DNA of 22,107 nucleotides from a virus, in IMG/VR virus record IMGVR_UViG_3300032331_000248, positions 1 through 22,107 of that record; one strand, 5' to 3'. Numbering within the stretch: the stretch's first letter is position 1; the number at the start of each line of letters is the position of its first letter. Shown here in pieces: positions 2,457 through 11,438 of the stretch. The notes under the pieces were generated by a model. It was not told the DNA's origin and did no database searches. It worked only from the letters and a program-made list of their open reading frames with translations. The position numbers and the translations under genes were made by a program.

Positions 2457-3368
2457 ATGTCTAGCACTATGCTCCAGTTAGTGCAGCAAGTTACCAATGA
2501 ATTAGGCGTGACAACACCGACAAGTGTTGCTGGAAATACTAATCAAGACGTTATCCAAATTCTTGCGTTAATGAACGCAAGTGGATACGAATTCTTGCGC
2601 AAACATCCTTGGCGAACGCTTACCAAGCAAAAGCAGTTCTACACCGAATATTTAACCACTACGGGCACATGGAGCGATAATGGAACATCCATTACGGGAA
2701 TTCCATCTACAACGGGTCTAGATAGCACTTACATGGTGGTTGGTACGGGTATCGACCAAAACACCTTTATTGAAACGGTTGACTCGGGCACTTCCGTCAC
2801 CATCAATAGAAGAACAACCGAGGCACAAACTAGCGCAACCGTGTACTTCCAAAAGATGAAGTATGCGTTTCCAAGCGACTATGAGGCAATCATCCCAAGG
2901 ACAATGTGGGATAAAGACAAGCATTGGGAAATGCTCGGCCCCGAAGATGCCCAACAATGGGAGTGGTTGCTTTCTGGTTACATTGCAACAGGCCCGAGGA
3001 TTCGGTGGCGTTTGTTTAGCAAGTATTTTCAAATATGGCCTGGCTTCTCCAACGCTGAGTTCTTGGGCTACGAGTACCGTTCAAACGCTTGGGCAAATAG
3101 CTCTACGGATATTCCCAAAACATCGTTCACCGTTGACTCCGATACTTGCATTTACCCCGACCGTTTAATGGTTCTTGCAACCAAGCTCAAATACTTTGAG
3201 GCTAAAGGTTTTGATACAACGGCCATGTATCGCAACTATTTGGAAGAAATGGAAGCGGCTATTGCTTTGGATATGTCTGCGGCTAATTTGTCGTTTGCAC
3301 CAAGGCCAGGAACAATTTTAGTGGGATACGACAATATCCCTGATAGCGGATATGGGGCTTCACCGTAA
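2457..3368 (+). CDS. Head-tail adaptor protein (P22 gp4 / SU10 adaptor-like)
   Basis: This 303-residue protein most likely forms the adaptor ring that attaches to the portal and receives the nozzle. The N-terminal helices (1-60) contain the typical pattern of an ordered small domain ending in EFLRKHPWRTLTK. The C-terminal part (about 133-270) has KYAFPSDYEAIIPRTMWD, a Trp-rich middle and a long helix containing the arginine-tyrosine stretch near 255-270. An apparent beta-domain insertion occupies about 70-132 (GTSITGIPSTTGL, MVVGTGIDQNTFIETVDSG, SVTINRRTT). I know this motif as a mobile Ig-like module in phage structural genes. The neighbour starts at a TAATG overlap and encodes the nozzle, the expected partner, which strengthens the call. 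Family membership is recalled, not searched. Confidence 0.7.
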   Translation: MSSTMLQLVQQVTNELGVTTPTSVAGNTNQDVIQILALMNASGYEFLRKHPWRTLTKQKQFYTEYLTTTGTWSDNGTSITGIPSTTGLDSTYMVVGTGIDQNTFIETVDSGTSVTINRRTTEAQTSATVYFQKMKYAFPSDYEAIIPRTMWDKDKHWEMLGPEDAQQWEWLLSGYIATGPRIRWRLFSKYFQIWPGFSNAEFLGYEYRSNAWANSSTDIPKTSFTVDSDTCIYPDRLMVLATKLKYFEAKGFDTTAMYRNYLEEMEAAIALDMSAANLSFAPRPGTILVGYDNIPDSGYGASP

Positions 3369-4912
3369 TGCCAAAAATTGCCCAAAGGACTGCCGCTAAC
3401 GTAGCGAGTATTCCCGCGCCCGTTGGGGGTTGGAATGTTCGTGATTCGTTGGCAAATATGTCACCAACCGATGCGGTGACGATGACCAACTTTTTTCCAA
3501 CGGTTTCAAGTGTAAACTTGCGCGGTGGATACACTAAGTGGTCAACGGGGATTTCGGGGCAAGTTGAAACGCTAATGGCGTATGAGACGGGTTCTGTAAG
3601 CAAGTTGTTTGGCATTGCCAATGGCTCAATCTACAACTGCACAACCCAAGGCGCGGTTGGCGCTGCTGAAGTAACGGGGCTAACAAATAGCCGTTTTGAG
3701 CATATCAACGTCACGACAGCGGGGGGGAGTTTCCTCTATGCTTGCAATGGCGTAAATGACCCGTTGCTTTACAACGGCACAACTTGGGCAAGCATTAACG
3801 GCTCAAGTTCACCTATTGCGATCACGGGTGTAACCACAAACAAATTCAACAACGTCACATTGTTCAAAAACCGTGTGTGGTTTATTGAGAAAGAAAGTCT
3901 AAAAGCGTGGTATTTGCCAACTAACTCGGTTGGCGGTGCGGCCGAGGTTTTAGATTTAAGTTCCATTGCCAAAATGGGCGGTTACATTGTTTCTCTTAGT
4001 GCATGGACAATTGACGCGGGTTATGGCGTAGACGACAACCTTGTGTTTGTAACGTCCCAAGGCGAAATTATTGTCTACCGAGGCACTGACCCCTCATCCG
4101 CAAGCACTTGGGCTTTAGCGGGCGTTTGGAAGCTCGGAGCGCCCGTTTCTAGGCGTTGTTTATATAAATACGGTGGCGACTTATTGGTTTTAAGTTTAGA
4201 TGGCTTGTTGCCATTGGCCTCGGCTTTGCAATCAAGCCGACTTGACCCAAGGGTTAACTTATCCGACAAGATTCAAGGCGCTATCACCGAGGCAACAACG
4301 GCCTACCAAAATTCATTTGGTTGGGCTATGCTTTATCACGCCAAAAACAATGCTTTGTGGATCAACGTCCCCGTTGGTGTTAACGCACAAGAACAATTTG
4401 TGATGAACACCATCACAAAATCATGGACAAAGTTCACGGGATGGGCGGCCAATTGTTGGGAGACATTTGACGACAATCCTTACTTTGGCGGCAATGGATA
4501 TGTTGGCTTGGCTTGGAATGGCTACACCGATGACATCAATGACATCAATGCGGTTGCTTTGCAAGCGTTTAACTATTACGAAAGCCGTGGTGTAAAGAAA
4601 TACTTTACAAGGGCAAGACCATCAATCTTTACGGATGGCTCTCCCGCCATTGTGGTTGGTATCAATGTCGACTTTGATTTATCGGACACAACGGGAAGTT
4701 TGAATTTTAGCCCAACAACTTATGGGTTTTGGGATACATCCGTTTGGGACACGGGATTGTGGGCGGGCAATACCATCATCACAAACAATTGGCAAGGCGT
4801 CACGGGTATTGGATATTGTGCGGGTATTCAACTAAAATCTGCCTCACAAGGCTTGCAAATTGAGTGGGCCTCAACCGATGTGGTATTCCAACAAGGATGG
4901 GCCGGCATATGA
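3368..4912 (+). CDS. Tail nozzle/hub protein (P22 gp10 or T7 gp12-like beta-propeller)
   Basis: The 514-residue product is interpreted as the tubular tail nozzle that extends from the adaptor and carries the fibres. It opens with APVGGWNVRDSLANM and a segment with FFPTVSSVNLRGG, the characteristic N-terminus of this family (a glycine-rich start, then a proline-containing strand). It continues with repeated blade-like strands: FLYACNGVNDPLLYNGTTW (114-132), VTLFKNRVWFIEKESLKAWY (159-178), NLVFVTSQGEIIVYRGTDP (222-240) and GDLLVLSLDGLLPLA (270-284). These suit a beta-propeller core, followed by a C-terminal beta domain. Translation is coupled at both ends (TAATG before, ATGA after). The length matches nozzle proteins of about 470-800 residues. 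Confidence 0.75.
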   Translation: MPKIAQRTAANVASIPAPVGGWNVRDSLANMSPTDAVTMTNFFPTVSSVNLRGGYTKWSTGISGQVETLMAYETGSVSKLFGIANGSIYNCTTQGAVGAAEVTGLTNSRFEHINVTTAGGSFLYACNGVNDPLLYNGTTWASINGSSSPIAITGVTTNKFNNVTLFKNRVWFIEKESLKAWYLPTNSVGGAAEVLDLSSIAKMGGYIVSLSAWTIDAGYGVDDNLVFVTSQGEIIVYRGTDPSSASTWALAGVWKLGAPVSRRCLYKYGGDLLVLSLDGLLPLASALQSSRLDPRVNLSDKIQGAITEATTAYQNSFGWAMLYHAKNNALWINVPVGVNAQEQFVMNTITKSWTKFTGWAANCWETFDDNPYFGGNGYVGLAWNGYTDDINDINAVALQAFNYYESRGVKKYFTRARPSIFTDGSPAIVVGINVDFDLSDTTGSLNFSPTTYGFWDTSVWDTGLWAGNTIITNNWQGVTGIGYCAGIQLKSASQGLQIEWASTDVVFQQGWAGI

Positions 4913-5346
4913 ACGCAAAGATGGAAAAGTTTGCAGATGTTTCAGCCGAGGCGGTGGTGCTTATTGGCAAACATTGGACGGAACTTTACGGCAATGCTAA
5001 CCTAAAGAGCGATTTAGGCGGCATGATTGAGCTAGAAAGAACGGGCAACTTTGCATACTTTACATTGCGCACCGAATCGGGTGATTTGGCGGGTCATGCG
5101 GGATTCATGGTGTTTAGATCGCCTTTTTATGGCGCGATGCAAGCGCTAGACGTTTTTTACTATTTATTGCCCGAGCATCGGGGCGGTCTTGGAATTTGCA
5201 AACTACTCAAGTTAGCGGGGCAAATGCTCAAAATCAATGGTGTTAGCCAAATCATGATTAGCCACAAGAAAAATCAAGATTTGAGCGTGTTGCTTCAAAG
5301 AGCAAACTATGAGCCATCTGGCGAAACATACGAATTTAAGGAATAA
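4909..5346 (+). CDS. GNAT-family N-acetyltransferase
   Basis: The 145-residue protein has the acetyl-CoA binding signature RGGLG at residues 91-95 after the strand ALDVFYYLLPEH, followed by the helix ICKLLKLAGQML, as in motif A of the GNAT fold. A later strand, SQIMISH, and the C-terminal segment NYEPSGETYEF complete the pattern. It should transfer an acetyl group from acetyl-CoA to an amine; the substrate is unknown. I chose the ATG at 4909, which overlaps the nozzle stop as ATGA, over an in-frame GTG at 4864 that would add 15 residues from another frame of the nozzle gene. GNAT genes among podovirus virion genes are recurrent and might modify a virion or host protein, which is inference. 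Confidence 0.8.
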   Translation: MNAKMEKFADVSAEAVVLIGKHWTELYGNANLKSDLGGMIELERTGNFAYFTLRTESGDLAGHAGFMVFRSPFYGAMQALDVFYYLLPEHRGGLGICKLLKLAGQMLKINGVSQIMISHKKNQDLSVLLQRANYEPSGETYEFKE

Positions 5347-5348
5347 AC

Positions 5349-7805
5349 ATGGCTTTCTTATGCCCCCAACCATCCGCGCCCGCAACGCCCGATTACGCAG
5401 CGGCCGCTACCGCCCAAGGCGTAGCAAATAAAGAAACTGCGCTTCAACAAGGTTATTTGAATAACCCCAACGTAAGTGGCCCGTTGGGTGGTCAAACCGT
5501 TACGTTTGATCCTGTTACGGGTCAACCAACAATTAAACAAAACTTGACCCCAACGGGTCAAAGCACGTTGGAAGCACAACAACGGGTTCAACAAGGAATG
5601 GCAAACCTTGGTGAGCAAGGTCTTGCAAGCGCATCAAAGATTATTGGAAAGCCGTTTGAGTACACGGGGCCAGGCGGGATTTTCTCTTTAGCCGATTCTG
5701 GAAAAGTAACGGCTGCGCCCGATCTTACAAAAATGGGTCAAGCACAAGGCTCAATGTTTGGTTTTGGTGGAACGGCCGCAGGCATAGGCCCATATGGTAC
5801 GGCCTCTGGTGGTGTCACAAGTGGTCAAGCACTAGGCTCTGTGACCAATCCACAAGCTACCGCCAACTTCCAAGGTGGTCAAGCAATGGGCGGGGTAACT
5901 GGCCCAAATTTGCAACAAAGCTATAGCGGTTATGGAACTGTCCAAGGCGCACCCGATTTGGGTAGTTATGGCTCGGCTTCCTCGATTGGCGCGGATGCTT
6001 ATGGATTAGCCAAGGGCGATGTTGCGGCAAACCAATACGGTTTAGCGGGCGGCATCAACCCGTCTCAATATGGATTGGCACAAGGCGGTGTTCAAGGCGT
6101 CAATTTGCAACAATCATTAAATAACATTGGCCCAATCAATCAAAACTTAAACGCTAATAATTATCTTTCTACCAACCAATTAGATTTGCGCAATGTTGCC
6201 CAAATGCCCGTCAATGCGGGCACTACGGGACAAGCGGCAATCATGTCTCGCCTTGCGCCTCAATTGGAACGCCAACAAAAACTAACTGCTCAAAGTTTGG
6301 CAAACCAAGGCTTAGTGGCGGGTGGTGAGGCATATACAAATGCAATGCGAGATCAAGCTCAACAACAAAATGATTTGTTGACCCAAGCGGCTTTGCAAGG
6401 CATTAGCTTGGACACTGCCGCAAATCAACAAGGCTTTAATCAAGCCGTGGCATCGGGTCAATTTGGCAATCTTGGACAACAACAAAACTTTGCTAATGCT
6501 TTGGCGGCTCAACAAGCCCAAAATGCGGCTCAAGGTCAAGGTTTTAACCAACAATTGCAATCGGGTCAATTTGGTAATCAAGCTCAATTGGCAAGTTTTG
6601 GTGTTAATTTGCAAAACCAACAAGCGCAAAATCAAGCAATTGCTCAGAATTACGGTCAAGGTTTAAGTGCGCAACAATTGGCAAATCAATCGGTTGCTCA
6701 AAACTTTGGTCAAGGAATTACGGCTCAAAATGCCGCTAATCAAGCCGTATCACAAAACTTTGGTCAAGGCATGGCGGCATCTAATGCGGCAAATGCGGCA
6801 GTGCAACAAAATCAAAGTGCGGCATTGCAACAACAAGCGGCCGCAAACCAAGCACAAGCCCAACAATACGCACAAGCGCAAGCTAATGCTCAATTTGCCA
6901 ATCAAGCCCAATTGTCGGGATTTGGTGCAAACTTGCAAAATCAGCAAGCTCAAAACCAAGCTATTGCGCAAAATTATGGTCAAGGCATGGGTACGCAAGC
7001 GGCTCAAAACCAAGCGGCTGCGCAAAACTTTGGTCAAAACGTGACCAATCAGCAACTTGGAAATCAGGCAACGCAGCAGAATTTCAACAATGCGTTGGCT
7101 ACGCAACAAGCGCAAAACCAAGCCATTGGACAAAACTTCTCTCAACAATTAGCGGGCACGCAATTGAGCAACCAAGCGATTGGTCAGAATTACCAACAGA
7201 ATTTGCAATCACAACAGGCAATCAACCAAGCGCTTGCACAAAACCAAGCCGTTGCCGCACAACAACAACAATTGGCTAATGCCGCACAACTTCAGCAGTA
7301 CAACCAAAATCTTACTAGTGCGCAGTTTGGTAATAGTGCGGCTACGCAAGAGCTACAAAAACAACTTGCATTGCGCAATCAACCTTTGAATGAAATCACG
7401 GGCTTGATGAGTGGCTCTCAGTTGCAGATGCCTCAGTTCCAAGGTTACAACCCAACCAACATTGCCCCCGCCCCCATATTTGCGGGCGCTCAAGCACAAG
7501 GCGCGGCCGATATGCAAAGATATGGCATCCAACAATCGGGTGCTAATGCTACAACGGGTGGATTGTTTGGCCTTGCGGGTGCGGCAGCGATGGCGCCAGT
7601 TGGCACGTTCTCTGACCGCAGATTGAAATCAAACATTGAGCGAATTGGCACTCATAAACTTGGCATCGGTTTGTATGAATATGACATCTTTGGAGGTCGT
7701 CAACAAGGTGTGATGGCAGATGAGGCCGAGAAAGTCATGCCACAAGCCGTTTCGATGCACCCAAGCGGTTACAAAATGGTCAACTATGGTTTATTGAACG
7801 GGTAA
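5349..7805 (+). CDS. Large Gln/Ala/Gly-rich virion protein with 18-residue repeats and C-terminal S74 chaperone domain
   Basis: The 818-residue protein has four parts. Residues 1-110 are mixed and include the strand GGQTVTFDPVTGQPTI. About 115-300 is Gly-rich with YG repeats. About 356-661 holds seventeen 18-residue repeats rich in Asn, Gln and Ala. The C-terminus, from Ser755, starts SDRRLKSNIERIG and contains YEYDIFGG and QGVMADEAEKVMPQAV, the hallmarks of the peptidase S74 intramolecular chaperone. In known S74 proteins the Ser and the Lys five residues later act in self-cleavage before that Ser; both are present here (Ser755, Lys760). The released tail would be only 64 residues, shorter than the roughly 100-150 of classical domains. 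S74 domains assist trimerisation of fibres, so this may be a long trimeric fibre, but its place next to two putative ejection proteins leaves an internal protein possible. AAGGAA precedes the ATG. Confidence 0.75.
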   Translation: MAFLCPQPSAPATPDYAAAATAQGVANKETALQQGYLNNPNVSGPLGGQTVTFDPVTGQPTIKQNLTPTGQSTLEAQQRVQQGMANLGEQGLASASKIIGKPFEYTGPGGIFSLADSGKVTAAPDLTKMGQAQGSMFGFGGTAAGIGPYGTASGGVTSGQALGSVTNPQATANFQGGQAMGGVTGPNLQQSYSGYGTVQGAPDLGSYGSASSIGADAYGLAKGDVAANQYGLAGGINPSQYGLAQGGVQGVNLQQSLNNIGPINQNLNANNYLSTNQLDLRNVAQMPVNAGTTGQAAIMSRLAPQLERQQKLTAQSLANQGLVAGGEAYTNAMRDQAQQQNDLLTQAALQGISLDTAANQQGFNQAVASGQFGNLGQQQNFANALAAQQAQNAAQGQGFNQQLQSGQFGNQAQLASFGVNLQNQQAQNQAIAQNYGQGLSAQQLANQSVAQNFGQGITAQNAANQAVSQNFGQGMAASNAANAAVQQNQSAALQQQAAANQAQAQQYAQAQANAQFANQAQLSGFGANLQNQQAQNQAIAQNYGQGMGTQAAQNQAAAQNFGQNVTNQQLGNQATQQNFNNALATQQAQNQAIGQNFSQQLAGTQLSNQAIGQNYQQNLQSQQAINQALAQNQAVAAQQQQLANAAQLQQYNQNLTSAQFGNSAATQELQKQLALRNQPLNEITGLMSGSQLQMPQFQGYNPTNIAPAPIFAGAQAQGAADMQRYGIQQSGANATTGGLFGLAGAAAMAPVGTFSDRRLKSNIERIGTHKLGIGLYEYDIFGGRQQGVMADEAEKVMPQAVSMHPSGYKMVNYGLLNG
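6414..7331 (+). repeat. Seventeen tandem 54-base (18-residue) coding repeats
   Basis: Residues 356-661 of the S74-tailed protein divide without gaps into 17 units of 18 residues, with an aromatic residue (F or Y) at unit position 8 in 15 of 17. The approximate consensus is NQAxxQNFxQxLxxQxAx. Flanking units on both sides are degenerate. Units at 6576-6683 and 6900-7007 are near-identical in protein, offset by exactly six units (324 bases), but differ at many synonymous sites. Protein-level selection is therefore likely, not recent DNA duplication. Eighteen residues make exactly five turns of an alpha-helix, so the aromatic residue would fall on one face. Confidence 0.85.
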
Positions 7806-7809
7806 AAAC

Positions 7810-9399
7810 ATGGCTAATCAATACGAACAATTTAGCGTTGCCAATCCTTATCAGTTGCAACAACAAGAGTTGGATAGACGGCAAAAAATGGCCGAGATTC
7901 TCCAACAACAAGCATTTGAGCCCGTTCAAGCGGGATCATACCAAGGCATCCAAGCCCCGATTAGCCCCGTTCAAGGTTTGGCTAAAGTGCTTCAAATGTA
8001 CTTGGCAAACAAGACTCAAGAAGGCTTGAAATCGGAACAAAAAGCCTTGGGTGAGCAATACCGTGCGGATACTTCTGCGGATATTCAGCGATTGATTAAA
8101 GGCTTGCAAGGCCAAGCGGCCACTCCCGAGATGAAGCAAGAGCCAACGGCAAGGGACTTTGAAGATAATCCAAACCTTGCGCCAACATTTGCTCAGATGC
8201 AACCTGACCAACAAAGAGCGATGACCATGCCCGCTATGCCCGCAAAGGCTGCGGGTGCGATTGATCCATCGTTGATTGGGGAGTTCAAAACGCCTGGTAT
8301 GCAACAACAAGCCTTGTCCATGTACATGGGTCAACTTGCACCTAAAGCGCCTATAGTGCTTAAAGAAGGTGAAATTGCATACAACCCAACAACATACGCG
8401 GAAATGTTTAAAGGTGGTGCAAAGTCTCCTTTTGGCAATGTTAACCCCGCCTCATTTACGCCCGATAGCCTGAAAGCGTTTAGTGCGGATGGCGGTAAGG
8501 ATTTCTCCTTATTAGTTCCCGCAGTTGGCGCGGATACCCAAGCAAGACTGAAGCAAGAGGCAGAACAAAATGCAGCAAGATTGAAACAAGAACGTGAAAT
8601 CTCTGATCGTGCATTTAATGGTTTGAGTGCAAATCAAAAGGCTTCTCTTGCTAATGATGCGGCAAGGATTGGAATTAGTGCGGCTGATCTTTTCTTTAAC
8701 ACGGGAATGAAAGCGGGCGGTGCGCCAAACATAGCTCAAGCAACTGCACAGCCTATGGCTCAACCCGTTGCACAACCTATGGCTCAACCACTTGCACAAC
8801 CCGTTAATCAGCCCGTTGCGCAAGCGCCTATGCCTATGCAACCTAGACCCGCGCCTGTAGCGCCTAATTTAGCCTTGGCAGCGGCCTTGTCACCAAAAGC
8901 ACAACAAGAGTTGCAAGTTAATCAGTTAAAAGAACAACAGGCAGCGGCTCAAGCATTGCCACAAGTGATGCAACAAGGTCAAACTTTGATTAGCACAATT
9001 GACCAAATGATTGGTGTAAAAGGTGCGGATGGCAAAGTTCTCATTCCCGAACACAAGGGCTTAAAAGACGTTGTTGGCACAACCATTCCGTTTGAATACA
9101 AGCCATTCCAAGGCGGCACGCAAGGCGCAGACTTCAAGGCCATGTATGACCAAGTTAAAGGTGGCGCTTTCCTTGAGGCCGTTCAACGTATGAAAGGTTC
9201 TGGCGCAATTTCCGAGATCGAGGGAACTAAAGCCACGGCCGCATTAACGGAAGCCTCAACCGCACAATCTCCCGATGCGTTTAGAAGCGCAATGTCCAAG
9301 TTTAGGGATGCAATTAAAACGGGCATGGGCAATGCGGCAACTAAAGCGGGCAAAGGTCAAATTCCAACTTACAATCCCGCAACAGGAAGGGTTGAGTAA
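7810..9399 (+). CDS. Putative internal virion (ejection) protein with Ala-Gln-Pro hinge
   Basis: The 529-residue protein is rich in Gln, Ala, Met and Pro. Its N-terminus (1-100) is helical and Gln-rich. A charged coiled coil occurs near 244-270 (RLKQEAEQNAARLKQEREI). A Pro/Gln hinge of six four-residue units spans 313-336. The C-terminal domain (about 380-515) includes FKAMYDQVKGGAFLEAVQRMKG and ISEIEGTKATAALTEAS, which I recognise as a recurring block in phage structural proteins of unknown function. Together with the next gene it sits between virion proteins and fibres, where podoviruses encode proteins ejected into the host ahead of the DNA. No enzyme motif is seen. The start has only a weak ribosome site (GAACGGG), but the spacing from the preceding stop is four bases. 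Confidence 0.6.
   Translation: MANQYEQFSVANPYQLQQQELDRRQKMAEILQQQAFEPVQAGSYQGIQAPISPVQGLAKVLQMYLANKTQEGLKSEQKALGEQYRADTSADIQRLIKGLQGQAATPEMKQEPTARDFEDNPNLAPTFAQMQPDQQRAMTMPAMPAKAAGAIDPSLIGEFKTPGMQQQALSMYMGQLAPKAPIVLKEGEIAYNPTTYAEMFKGGAKSPFGNVNPASFTPDSLKAFSADGGKDFSLLVPAVGADTQARLKQEAEQNAARLKQEREISDRAFNGLSANQKASLANDAARIGISAADLFFNTGMKAGGAPNIAQATAQPMAQPVAQPMAQPLAQPVNQPVAQAPMPMQPRPAPVAPNLALAAALSPKAQQELQVNQLKEQQAAAQALPQVMQQGQTLISTIDQMIGVKGADGKVLIPEHKGLKDVVGTTIPFEYKPFQGGTQGADFKAMYDQVKGGAFLEAVQRMKGSGAISEIEGTKATAALTEASTAQSPDAFRSAMSKFRDAIKTGMGNAATKAGKGQIPTYNPATGRVE
8746..8817 (+). repeat. Six 12-base units encoding an Ala-Gln-Pro hinge
   Basis: Six consecutive 12-base units encode AQPM, AQPV, AQPM, AQPL, AQPV and NQPV. 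The first and third units differ by one base (GCACAGCCTATG, GCACAACCTATG), which is consistent with slippage or small duplications. A Pro every fourth residue prevents helix formation and should give an extended flexible linker between the coiled coil and the C-terminal domain of the surrounding protein. Confidence 0.8.
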
Positions 9400-11438
9400 T
9401 GTCCGAAGCATTTAAAACCGTAGAAATCCCAAATTTTGGGCCTGTTAACTTTCCCCTCACGATGTCGGATGACCAAGTTAATGCGGCCATCTTTAAGATC
9501 ACGCAAAGCCCGACATCTCAACCCGCAGTAGATAAAACGGTTGAATCCCCCGCTATGGTGCAAGGCCGCCAAGCCGACTTGTCCATGCCAAGCAAAATGG
9601 GTTTGGCAGCGGCTCAAGGTCTAACCTTTAACTTTGCACCAAAGATTGCGGGTGCGGGTGCTGCGGGGATGGACATCTTGCAACGTGGCTTTGATTCCAC
9701 TCCAACCGAAACTTACGCAAACACCCGTGATTACATCAAAGGCGTAAATGAGCAATTTAGGGAAACCAACCCCAAAACGGCATTTGCAAGCGAGGTAGTT
9801 GGTGGTTTACCACTTTTGCTCACACCTTTGGGAATGACAAGTAAGGCGAAGCAAACCGCAGAGGCGTTGTCAGCGGCCGAGAAAATGGCAATGGCCGCAA
9901 GAATGGCGGGCACGCAAGGCACGATTTCGGCCGTTGGTGCATCCGACATCAACCCCGTCACTAACCCTACAGAATACACTCAAGATATTGCCAAAAAAGC
10001 GGCAATTGCTGCCGCCTCTGGTGGTGTTTTATCGGGTGGTGGACAAGCCGTTTATAACGTGGGTAGCAATGTTGCACAACGCTACATCCCCGAAAGTGCC
10101 AAAGATGCGGCACGAATCAAACTTGCTCAAGCCTTACAACGTGGCTCAAGTGCGGATGGCTCAAACACCGTGTTAAGCCGTGTTGAGCGTGAAATGGGGT
10201 TAAACCCTAATGCAAGCATTGCACAAGCGGGTGGCCCGAGTGCGTTGGCTCAATTGGATGTGTTGGCATCGATGCCAGGCCAAGCAAAAACGCTTGTAGA
10301 GCGAAGAATTCGTGAACAACAAACATTTAGACCCGAGCGCCTTGCAAATGCCGCTGACGAGGCTCTAGGCACTCAAGGTAAGGGTTTCACGGCCACATTG
10401 GACGCATTGACTGCGGTTAAACAGGCCACATCTGCGCCTTTATACAAAAAACTTGAAAACGTATCTTTAAAGATTGACGATGAGTTGCAATCTTTGATTC
10501 AAGCCTCAAGGTCTGCGCATGGCAAAGCCGAGTTGTTGACCGAATTAAATAGAAAATTGCCACTTGATATATCCAAGCTAAAAGCGGGCGATGATGTCCC
10601 TCTTAATGCTTTAGACCTTGTTAAACAATCACTTTATGACATGGGCGAATCGGCCCGTGGCGAGTTTGGCAAAGCGACAAACACAAGCCGAGCATACGAT
10701 GATTTGCGAGTGGCATTGACAAAGAAACTTGAAGCCTTATCCCCTGCTGATAAAAATGGTTCAATTTACCGTCAAGCCTTGGACGCTTACGCTGGCCCAT
10801 CACAACTAGGCAATGCCGTTGTCAAGGGTAGAACGGCCATGAAGCAAGACGATATTGCTTTATCCGACTTGATGGGCAATATGTCGCCAAGCGAGTTAGA
10901 GGCTTTTCGCATAGGTGCGTTGCAGTCTTTGAAAGACAAAGTTGGCACGGAAGCGGGTCAAACGTCTTTATTGAAGATGTGGAAAGAACCCGCCACAAGC
11001 AATAGGCTTAAAGAGATATTTGGTGACAACTATCAAAAGTTTGCCCAAGAAGTTGCCAAAGAAGCTAGATTGAAGCCTTTAGAGCAAGTTGGTAGAGGCT
11101 CGGGCACGTTTTCTAGAATGGCGGGCGCGGAAGATTTAGGCGTCATGCCAACCACAATGGCTGCGGGCAAAGCGGTGGCAAGTGCGGCCACGGGTAGCCC
11201 AATGGCGGCTGCGGGCGAGGCGGTAAATGTTAAAAATAGGATTGGTCAAGTAATCAACCAAATGCCTGAGACAACACGCAATGAACTAGCTAAAATGTTG
11301 TTATTGCGTGGCCCAACGGGGCAATTAGAAGTAGAGAACACAGCGGCTTTGATTCGTGCTTTAAACCAACGATCAACGCAATTGCAAACGGGTGGTGGCT
11401 CAATAATTGGGCAAAATCTTGACCAATACGGCAGATAA
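9399..11438 (+). CDS. Putative internal virion (ejection) protein
   Basis: The 679-residue product has no enzymatic motif that I recognise. A short N-terminal domain (1-45, ending in MSDDQVNAAIFKIT) is followed by an Ala/Gly-rich hydrophobic helix region (about 66-95). A second hydrophobic stretch lies at about 125-135 (GGLPLLLTPLG), with Ala-rich helices to 230 that include GGVLSGGGQ. A long mainly helical region with many charged residues (235-560) and an Ala/Met-rich C-terminal part complete it. Gly/Ala-rich possibly membrane-active helices in a large helical virion-region protein are common in ejection proteins that form a channel across the host envelope. The start ATG overlaps the previous stop (TAATG), suggesting coupled translation and equal amounts of the two proteins. 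The role is inferred from position and composition. Confidence 0.55.
   Translation: MSEAFKTVEIPNFGPVNFPLTMSDDQVNAAIFKITQSPTSQPAVDKTVESPAMVQGRQADLSMPSKMGLAAAQGLTFNFAPKIAGAGAAGMDILQRGFDSTPTETYANTRDYIKGVNEQFRETNPKTAFASEVVGGLPLLLTPLGMTSKAKQTAEALSAAEKMAMAARMAGTQGTISAVGASDINPVTNPTEYTQDIAKKAAIAAASGGVLSGGGQAVYNVGSNVAQRYIPESAKDAARIKLAQALQRGSSADGSNTVLSRVEREMGLNPNASIAQAGGPSALAQLDVLASMPGQAKTLVERRIREQQTFRPERLANAADEALGTQGKGFTATLDALTAVKQATSAPLYKKLENVSLKIDDELQSLIQASRSAHGKAELLTELNRKLPLDISKLKAGDDVPLNALDLVKQSLYDMGESARGEFGKATNTSRAYDDLRVALTKKLEALSPADKNGSIYRQALDAYAGPSQLGNAVVKGRTAMKQDDIALSDLMGNMSPSELEAFRIGALQSLKDKVGTEAGQTSLLKMWKEPATSNRLKEIFGDNYQKFAQEVAKEARLKPLEQVGRGSGTFSRMAGAEDLGVMPTTMAAGKAVASAATGSPMAAAGEAVNVKNRIGQVINQMPETTRNELAKMLLLRGPTGQLEVENTAALIRALNQRSTQLQTGGGSIIGQNLDQYGR

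Follow-up and report, generated by a model that had tools for sequence, protein, structure and literature searches.

A podophage virion protein with two length-matched repeat arrays: a proposed antiparallel hairpin and a possible variable-length ejection tube

The phages phiGT1 and Mx8 belong to a P22-like lineage in which internal virion proteins are encoded downstream of tubeB (PMC10386132). In the T7 group, the gp14 proteins are 181–240 aa in length with little variation, and most of them carry 4–5 predicted TM helices (PMC8954989). The ejected gp14 of T7 forms a two-helix antiparallel hairpin; the channel that it builds is hexameric and prolongs the nozzle, and loops of gp6.7 fill the clefts between neighbouring gp14 (PMC11784390).

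The window analyzed here is a stretch of 22,107 nucleotides from an IMG/VR virus record (IMGVR_UViG_3300032331_000248), which carries a gene for a protein of 818 aa that matches phrog_6121 ('virion structural protein', E=7e-45), as do 56 of the 56 relatives scanned. The homologues of the same family from the isolates Mx8 (p54), phiGT1 (phiGT1_17) and RHph_I3_18 (EVC14_014) share the core, the gene order and the S74 end with the window, but they are 326–342 aa long and contain neither of its two repeat arrays. Relatives that are nearly devoid of an 18-residue array are devoid of the upstream array as well, every array-bearing relative is a metagenomic contig, and the arrays appear to have expanded in particular lineages among the uncultivated IMG/VR relatives. 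No relative was found in the genome contigs scanned with one family member (L062), hence there is no prophage or host link. No description of the paired-array protein was found in the open-licence literature, the coverage of which is incomplete.

Gene order, domains and the S74 module

The features of the locus are as follows, with the evidence for each in brackets.

2457-3368, + strand: adaptor-like tail protein in the tubeA position (phrog_6013 tail protein; synteny with Mx8 and phiGT1)
3368-4912, + strand: nozzle-like tail protein of the tubeB / P22 gp10 type (phrog_5107; matches to 'tubular tail B' of Mx8 and phiGT1)
4864-5346, + strand: GNAT-fold gene in place of P22 gene 14 / T7 gene 13 (phrog_1249 acetyltransferase; annotation of phiGT1_16)
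5349-7805, + strand: whole gene of the array protein, 818 aa virion structural protein of the phrog_6121 family, in the T7 gp14 / P22 gp7 position (ORF; phrog_6121 match)
5349-5612, + strand: N-terminal domain, aa 1-88, helix / beta hairpin / helix (AlphaFold2 pLDDT mostly 70-80; invariant columns in 69 relatives)
5613-6206, + strand: upstream (N) array region, aa 89-286, Gly/Tyr-rich units and linkers (anchored lengths in 136 relatives; matched indels)
6207-6413, + strand: fixed 69-residue core, aa 287-355, predicted helix-turn-helix, mirror point of both arrays (anchor spacing; AlphaFold2)
6414-7331, + strand: C array, seventeen 18-residue Q/A/N units with an aromatic residue at position 8 (periodicity; predicted helix)
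7332-7376, + strand: last, incomplete unit of 15 residues, aa 662-676, where the C-array helix ends (constant remainder of 15 modulo 18 in relatives)
7377-7610, + strand: conserved C-terminal region of the mature form (NQPLNEI...GAQA...), with a Gly/Ala-rich hydrophobic stretch at its end (invariant columns; relatives lacking S74 end here)
7611-7802, + strand: Peptidase_S74 / ICA autocleavage module, predicted cut before Ser755, dyad Ser755-Lys760 (PF13884; motif in relatives)
7810-9399, + strand: putative ejection protein in place of P22 gp20 / T7 gp15, here p529 (phrog_2534 'released from the phage upon host infection', also matched by P22 gp20)
9399-11438, + strand: putative ejection protein in place of P22 gp16 / T7 gp16 (position; phrog_5880 of unknown function)

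The order of tubeA, tubeB, the GNAT gene, the array protein and the ejection genes is shared with phiGT1 and Mx8, and the same order is observed in P22 (14, 7, 20, 16) and T7 (12, 13, 14, 15, 16). This places the array protein of these short-tailed aquatic phages at the first-ejected (T7 gp14 / P22 gp7) position of Mx8-like podophages, from which a variable-length ejection tube or stalk might be deduced. The family and the gene order thus bear out the virion or ejection-type protein that had been proposed in the sequence-only reading, and we regard the array protein as probably an ejection protein. Like T7 gp14 and P22 gp7, it is encoded after the GNAT/gp13-14 gene and ahead of the gp15/gp20 gene, whereas a profile comparison (hhalign) with P22 gp7 and T7 gp14 revealed no detectable homology, with probabilities of 0.2% and 0.1%. 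The size and the set of TM helices of gp14-like proteins were not found either, as the protein has 818 aa and, judged by eye, one Gly/Ala-rich hydrophobic stretch near aa 737-754, and the lengths across the family range from about 300 to 1311 aa. A match to phrog_4287 ('DNA ejection protein') was first counted as support and then discounted, since it vanishes in the members without S74 and is therefore largely S74-driven. Among the neighbouring genes, the nozzle-like one matches phrog_5107, which bears the name 'amidase'; its phiGT1 homologue is annotated as tubular tail B / P22 gp10-like, so the amidase label is probably wrong. The p529 gene contains at 8740-8850 a short repeat of the AQPMAQPVAQP type, with a match to Pfam PT below the cut-off.

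The S74 tail noticed earlier proved to be a genuine domain, as Pfam PF13884 (Peptidase_S74) matches aa 755-801 with 23 bits, above the curated cut-off of 22. The window holds a Ser-Lys dyad (S755/K760) with the same spacing as the MyRF dyad S587/K592 (PMC8326128), and S-D-x-R-L-K is maintained in 102 of the 102 relatives having the motif. The Peptidase_S74 / ICA domains of endoNF and MyRF thus resemble the module in the S-D-x-R/K-L-K motif and in the equal spacing of the dyad, but the module in this family is short (~65 aa), and about a quarter of the members lack it. The motif search missed S74 in 43 relatives, three of which (L121, L124 and L039) still end S74-like, leaving ~40 relatives without it. 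Proteins lacking S74 stop ~40 residues past the conserved block and the predicted cut lies ~37 residues past it, suggesting that the mature proteins probably end alike. The conserved dyad predicts self-cleavage, and judging from the sequences S74 is probably an optional assembly module that is cut off afterwards. The earlier suggestion that the long helices are held together by an S74 trimerisation chaperone therefore finds no support in that form, given the members without S74, the predicted self-cleavage and the ends of these members near the cut.

The two arrays and their paired lengths

Five IMG/VR scans, combined with HMM anchors on three conserved blocks, yielded 161 non-identical family members, some of which are overlapping contigs or near-identical phages. 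The C array (aa 356-661, nt 6414-7331) consists of exactly 17 units of 18 residues with zero indels, as had been claimed from the sequence alone. With a profile built from the relatives, each of the 17 units received a positive score (7 to 36 bits), whereas the units on either side scored strongly negative; the borders given earlier are thus exact. The self-identity at lags of 18–90 has a mean of 0.41, against a maximum of 0.23 over 5000 composition-preserving shuffles and a composition expectation of 0.18, and the repeats are diverged, with neighbouring units ~43% identical. The aromatic residue at position 8, which was said to be kept throughout, is present in 15 of the 17 units, with Gln in its place in the two that lie at aa 482 and 626, while the near-absence of charge was confirmed by an array harboring no D, E, K or R. 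No proline was found in the 26,415 residues of the C arrays of the relatives. A heptad coiled-coil stripe was looked for via the hydrophobic moment, which is 4.7 at 100 degrees vs 17.7 at 80 degrees (4.5 residues), the highest among the angles tested. The hydrophobic positions lie on two faces, with 4, 8 and 12 on one and 17 (with Ala3) on the other. Of the long helix or coiled coil envisaged earlier, the helix is retained on the strength of the 18-residue phase, the lack of Pro and AlphaFold2, but the simple coiled-coil stripe is not, owing to the low moment at 100 degrees.

The distance from the core to the NQPLNEI block is 15 modulo 18 in 151 of the 161 relatives and ranges from 33 to 627 residues, with unit numbers from about 1 to 34; the expectation that repeat number varies by multiples of 54 bases among relatives was thus satisfied in these 151. 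Ten relatives are off-phase, of which four (L145, L250, L252 and L253) are weakly anchored and were not counted. The six well-anchored ones (L106, L115, L118, L141, L142 and L123) may stand for three lineages and deviate by 7 or 14 residues; since such offsets preserve the alpha-helical phase, they were taken as support for the helix. A higher-order repeat of about four 18-residue units (72 residues) was seen in L052, L057 and L181, suggesting block duplication. In the distant relatives L250 and L253, longer charged units of ~25 residues, such as GMSQDEITRLGTDLKSRASAFGEK, stand in place of the C array; they equal 7+18, so that the helical phase would be kept too.

The feature judged most informative, a length-matched array upstream of the core, had not been mentioned in the sequence-only reading. 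This second array occupies aa about 120-286 and its units are mostly of 9 or 12 residues, e.g., YGLAxGGVxxxQ. The core between the two arrays is a single 69-position block in the 161 relatives, with 48 aa between its two anchors in 63 of the 63 relatives parsed with independent patterns. Across 136 relatives, the length of the N array follows that of the C array with a slope of 0.575 and r=0.98. When phylogeny was taken into account by independent contrasts, with a tree inferred from the conserved blocks, r was 0.87 and 81 of 82 informative contrasts had the same sign; the tree is rough because it was built from only ~133 aligned positions, yet the differences between sister pairs alone (C/N, in aa: 18/12, 36/18, 54/36, 90/54 and 108/66) still give the pattern. 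After the removal of eight points lying >20 aa off, 128 of the 136 relatives fall on one line over the whole range of unit numbers (r 0.9988, residual SD 3.9 aa), though this is a post hoc selection and the unselected r (0.98) is the fair figure. Each of the eight outliers (L062, L066, L076, L152, L167, L174, L177 and L205) appears to have one non-repeat loop in the upstream array, and these inserted loops are about 25-80 residues long and often charged. One relative with a C array short for its upstream region (L023) was excluded from the length statistics, being truncated by the contig end. The lengths of the neighbouring proteins showed no positive correlation with array length, giving no sign of a wider tape-measure system.

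Mirror-matched indels and the proposed hairpin

In alignments of close relatives, the indels of the two arrays pair one to one at mirror distances from the core, at a ratio of one upstream unit per 18-residue unit. For 33 disjoint pairs with a single indel per arm, the fractional distances from the core are correlated with r of 0.97, and the mean mismatch is 0.037 for antiparallel vs 0.278 for parallel order; the mirror order has a permutation p of 5e-5, and a subset of 15 pairs with small indels has r of 0.98. Within repeats, gaps can be placed only to within about one unit, an error that should contribute noise but not create order. The window protein and L038 differ by four paired changes in the same order, of 84, 18, 9 and 18 aa in the N array and 126, 36, 18 and 36 aa in the C array, that is, 12, 9, 9 and 9 upstream residues per 18-residue unit. 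L036 and L035, from one metagenome, differ by insertions of 36 bp and 54 bp located 0.87 kb apart, with 95% identity elsewhere. Close pairs with differing arrays change both arms in the same direction in 2346 of 2423 cases, although these pairs are not independent. Loose cases were L058/L045 (11 aa for 36) and the loop-bearing L177/L205. Assembly collapse of the repeats is possible, yet it would not produce matched pairs. In the window (5613-6206) and its main clade, the upstream units of paired insertions have 12 residues nearer the core and 9 residues, with mostly two units added at a time, farther away; the type of unit seems tied to position.

In SMC and MukB, two distant segments pair antiparallel around a central turn, with paired positions at mirror distances, an arm pairing reportedly described by Melby in 1998 (cited in PMC5526789). 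The array protein shows the corresponding pattern, its arm indels being paired at mirror distances from the hinge. The resemblance is an analogy only, as SMC arms are two helices with ATPase heads, whereas the array protein has no ATPase, one of its arms is a short-unit Gly-rich array and its unit number varies ~30-fold.

The periodicity, the paired lengths, the one-to-one unit ratio and the mirrored order of the indels are seen directly, and it is very probable that the arms are paired and antiparallel. By arithmetic, the recurrent smallest upstream unit of 9 aa spanning 27 Å gives 3.0 Å per residue, near that of a fully extended chain, and this value and the mirror order fit an extended chain running antiparallel along the helix with the core as the turn. 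From the N-terminal base domain the chain would first run in extended form through the Gly/Tyr-rich 9- or 12-residue units and turn at the invariant 69-residue helix-turn-helix core. Its way back would be one unbroken alpha helix, in which each 18-residue unit measures 27 Å. Every upstream unit would dock in register, and in antiparallel orientation, on a single helix unit, so that the arms would gain or lose length only by whole matched units. We infer that the helix, whether the chain's own or a neighbour's, and the extended chain are in physical contact, on the basis of length genetics and not of a seen structure. The AlphaFold2 monomer of the window protein has helices at 294-319 and from 327 onward around the core, the latter as 327-518 and 527-688 (helix pLDDT about 41-82), while the upstream array in the monomers is unstructured, with pLDDT <50 and without confident packing. 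A Foldseek search with the low-confidence model of L058 gave relatives annotated only as 'intramolecular chaperone' proteins, and sequence searches of the PDB turned up nothing of use for the protein, a profile of its family, the nozzle-like neighbour or p529.

If the protein were instead a permanent tail needle or fibre, its long Gln-rich helices would form a parallel trimer put together by the S74 chaperone; the conserved dyad and the tail-fibre label that databases attach to S74 matches would suit such a structure. S74 domains classically trimerise fibres. We nevertheless consider a needle or fibre unlikely, as about a quarter of the relatives are without S74, the array gene comes after the GNAT/gp14 gene while the needle gene of P22 comes before it, and the matched upstream array is not accounted for by such a structure itself. 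The 18-residue array could also be a beta solenoid in which each unit makes one turn, or a Q/N-rich assembly of the prion type, to which the Q/N/G-rich composition, the hydrophobic positions 3/4, 8, 12 and 17 and a moment that, among the angles tested, is highest at 80 degrees and low at 100 would conform. Such a fold has very little probability in view of the Ala/Gln-rich arrays wholly lacking Pro and the helix given by AlphaFold2; moreover, the offsets of 7 or 14 residues are explained by helix phase, and the match of 9 aa per 27 Å requires the rise of a helix.

The paired lengths might be ascribed to flexible, unpaired spacers, with both arrays scaling with the same outside dimension, e.g., an envelope layer, and the low-complexity Q/N/G composition and the low AlphaFold2 confidence in the upstream array would agree with this. 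Spacers, however, would match only in total, whereas single indels match in size and in mirror order, including the four ordered events between the window and L038, and together with the strict 18-residue phase this makes spacers quite improbable. Podophage genes are known to be mosaic (PMC10386132), and a recombinational swap of the gene centre that spans the core would carry both arrays along together without any constraint between them. For this mutational co-variation to explain the data, cuts at matched heights would be required every time; the shared direction of change in nearly all close pairs, dependent as these are, and the gain of single matched units between L035 and L036, from one sample and with genes 95% identical, also speak against it, so that we give it hardly any weight.

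A possible ejection tube and its meaning

With the paired antiparallel arms as the preferred reading, the oligomerised array protein would act as the first-ejected protein, in the role of T7 gp14 / P22 gp7, with S74 helping assembly and then being cut off. After ejection, the hairpins would form a tube or stalk continuing the nozzle, the length of which would be set by the number of units, with a rod of ~46 nm in the window and of 0 to ~95 nm in the relatives. A straight rod of 46-95 nm exceeds or nearly fills a podovirus capsid, and therefore the arms would need bent or unfolded storage. The hairpin that T7 gp14 adopts on ejection (PMC11784390) resembles the fold proposed here, and the upstream chain could, by analogy, fill clefts of the gp6.7 type in cis. 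A length-setting tube may be put forward tentatively. Taken as a whole, a two-armed hairpin in a first-ejected protein that forms a variable-length tube or stalk is, on balance, the explanation that we favour. It is conceivable, with less assurance, that helix and extended chain of one polypeptide, zipped around a fixed turn via paired modules of 18 and 9/12 residues, make a new architecture, an ejectable tube that evolves in length by matched module pairs and gives a short-tailed phage a tail of host-specific length only at infection.

The indel record amounts to a natural mutagenesis experiment, revealing the pairing partners, the direction and the ratio that structure prediction did not resolve. 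The modular rod of two matched repeat types would be usable for protein design. If the role is true, the array protein would offer a direct way into the question of how phages with short tails span envelopes that differ in thickness, since about 0 to 34 length units occur within a single phage family.
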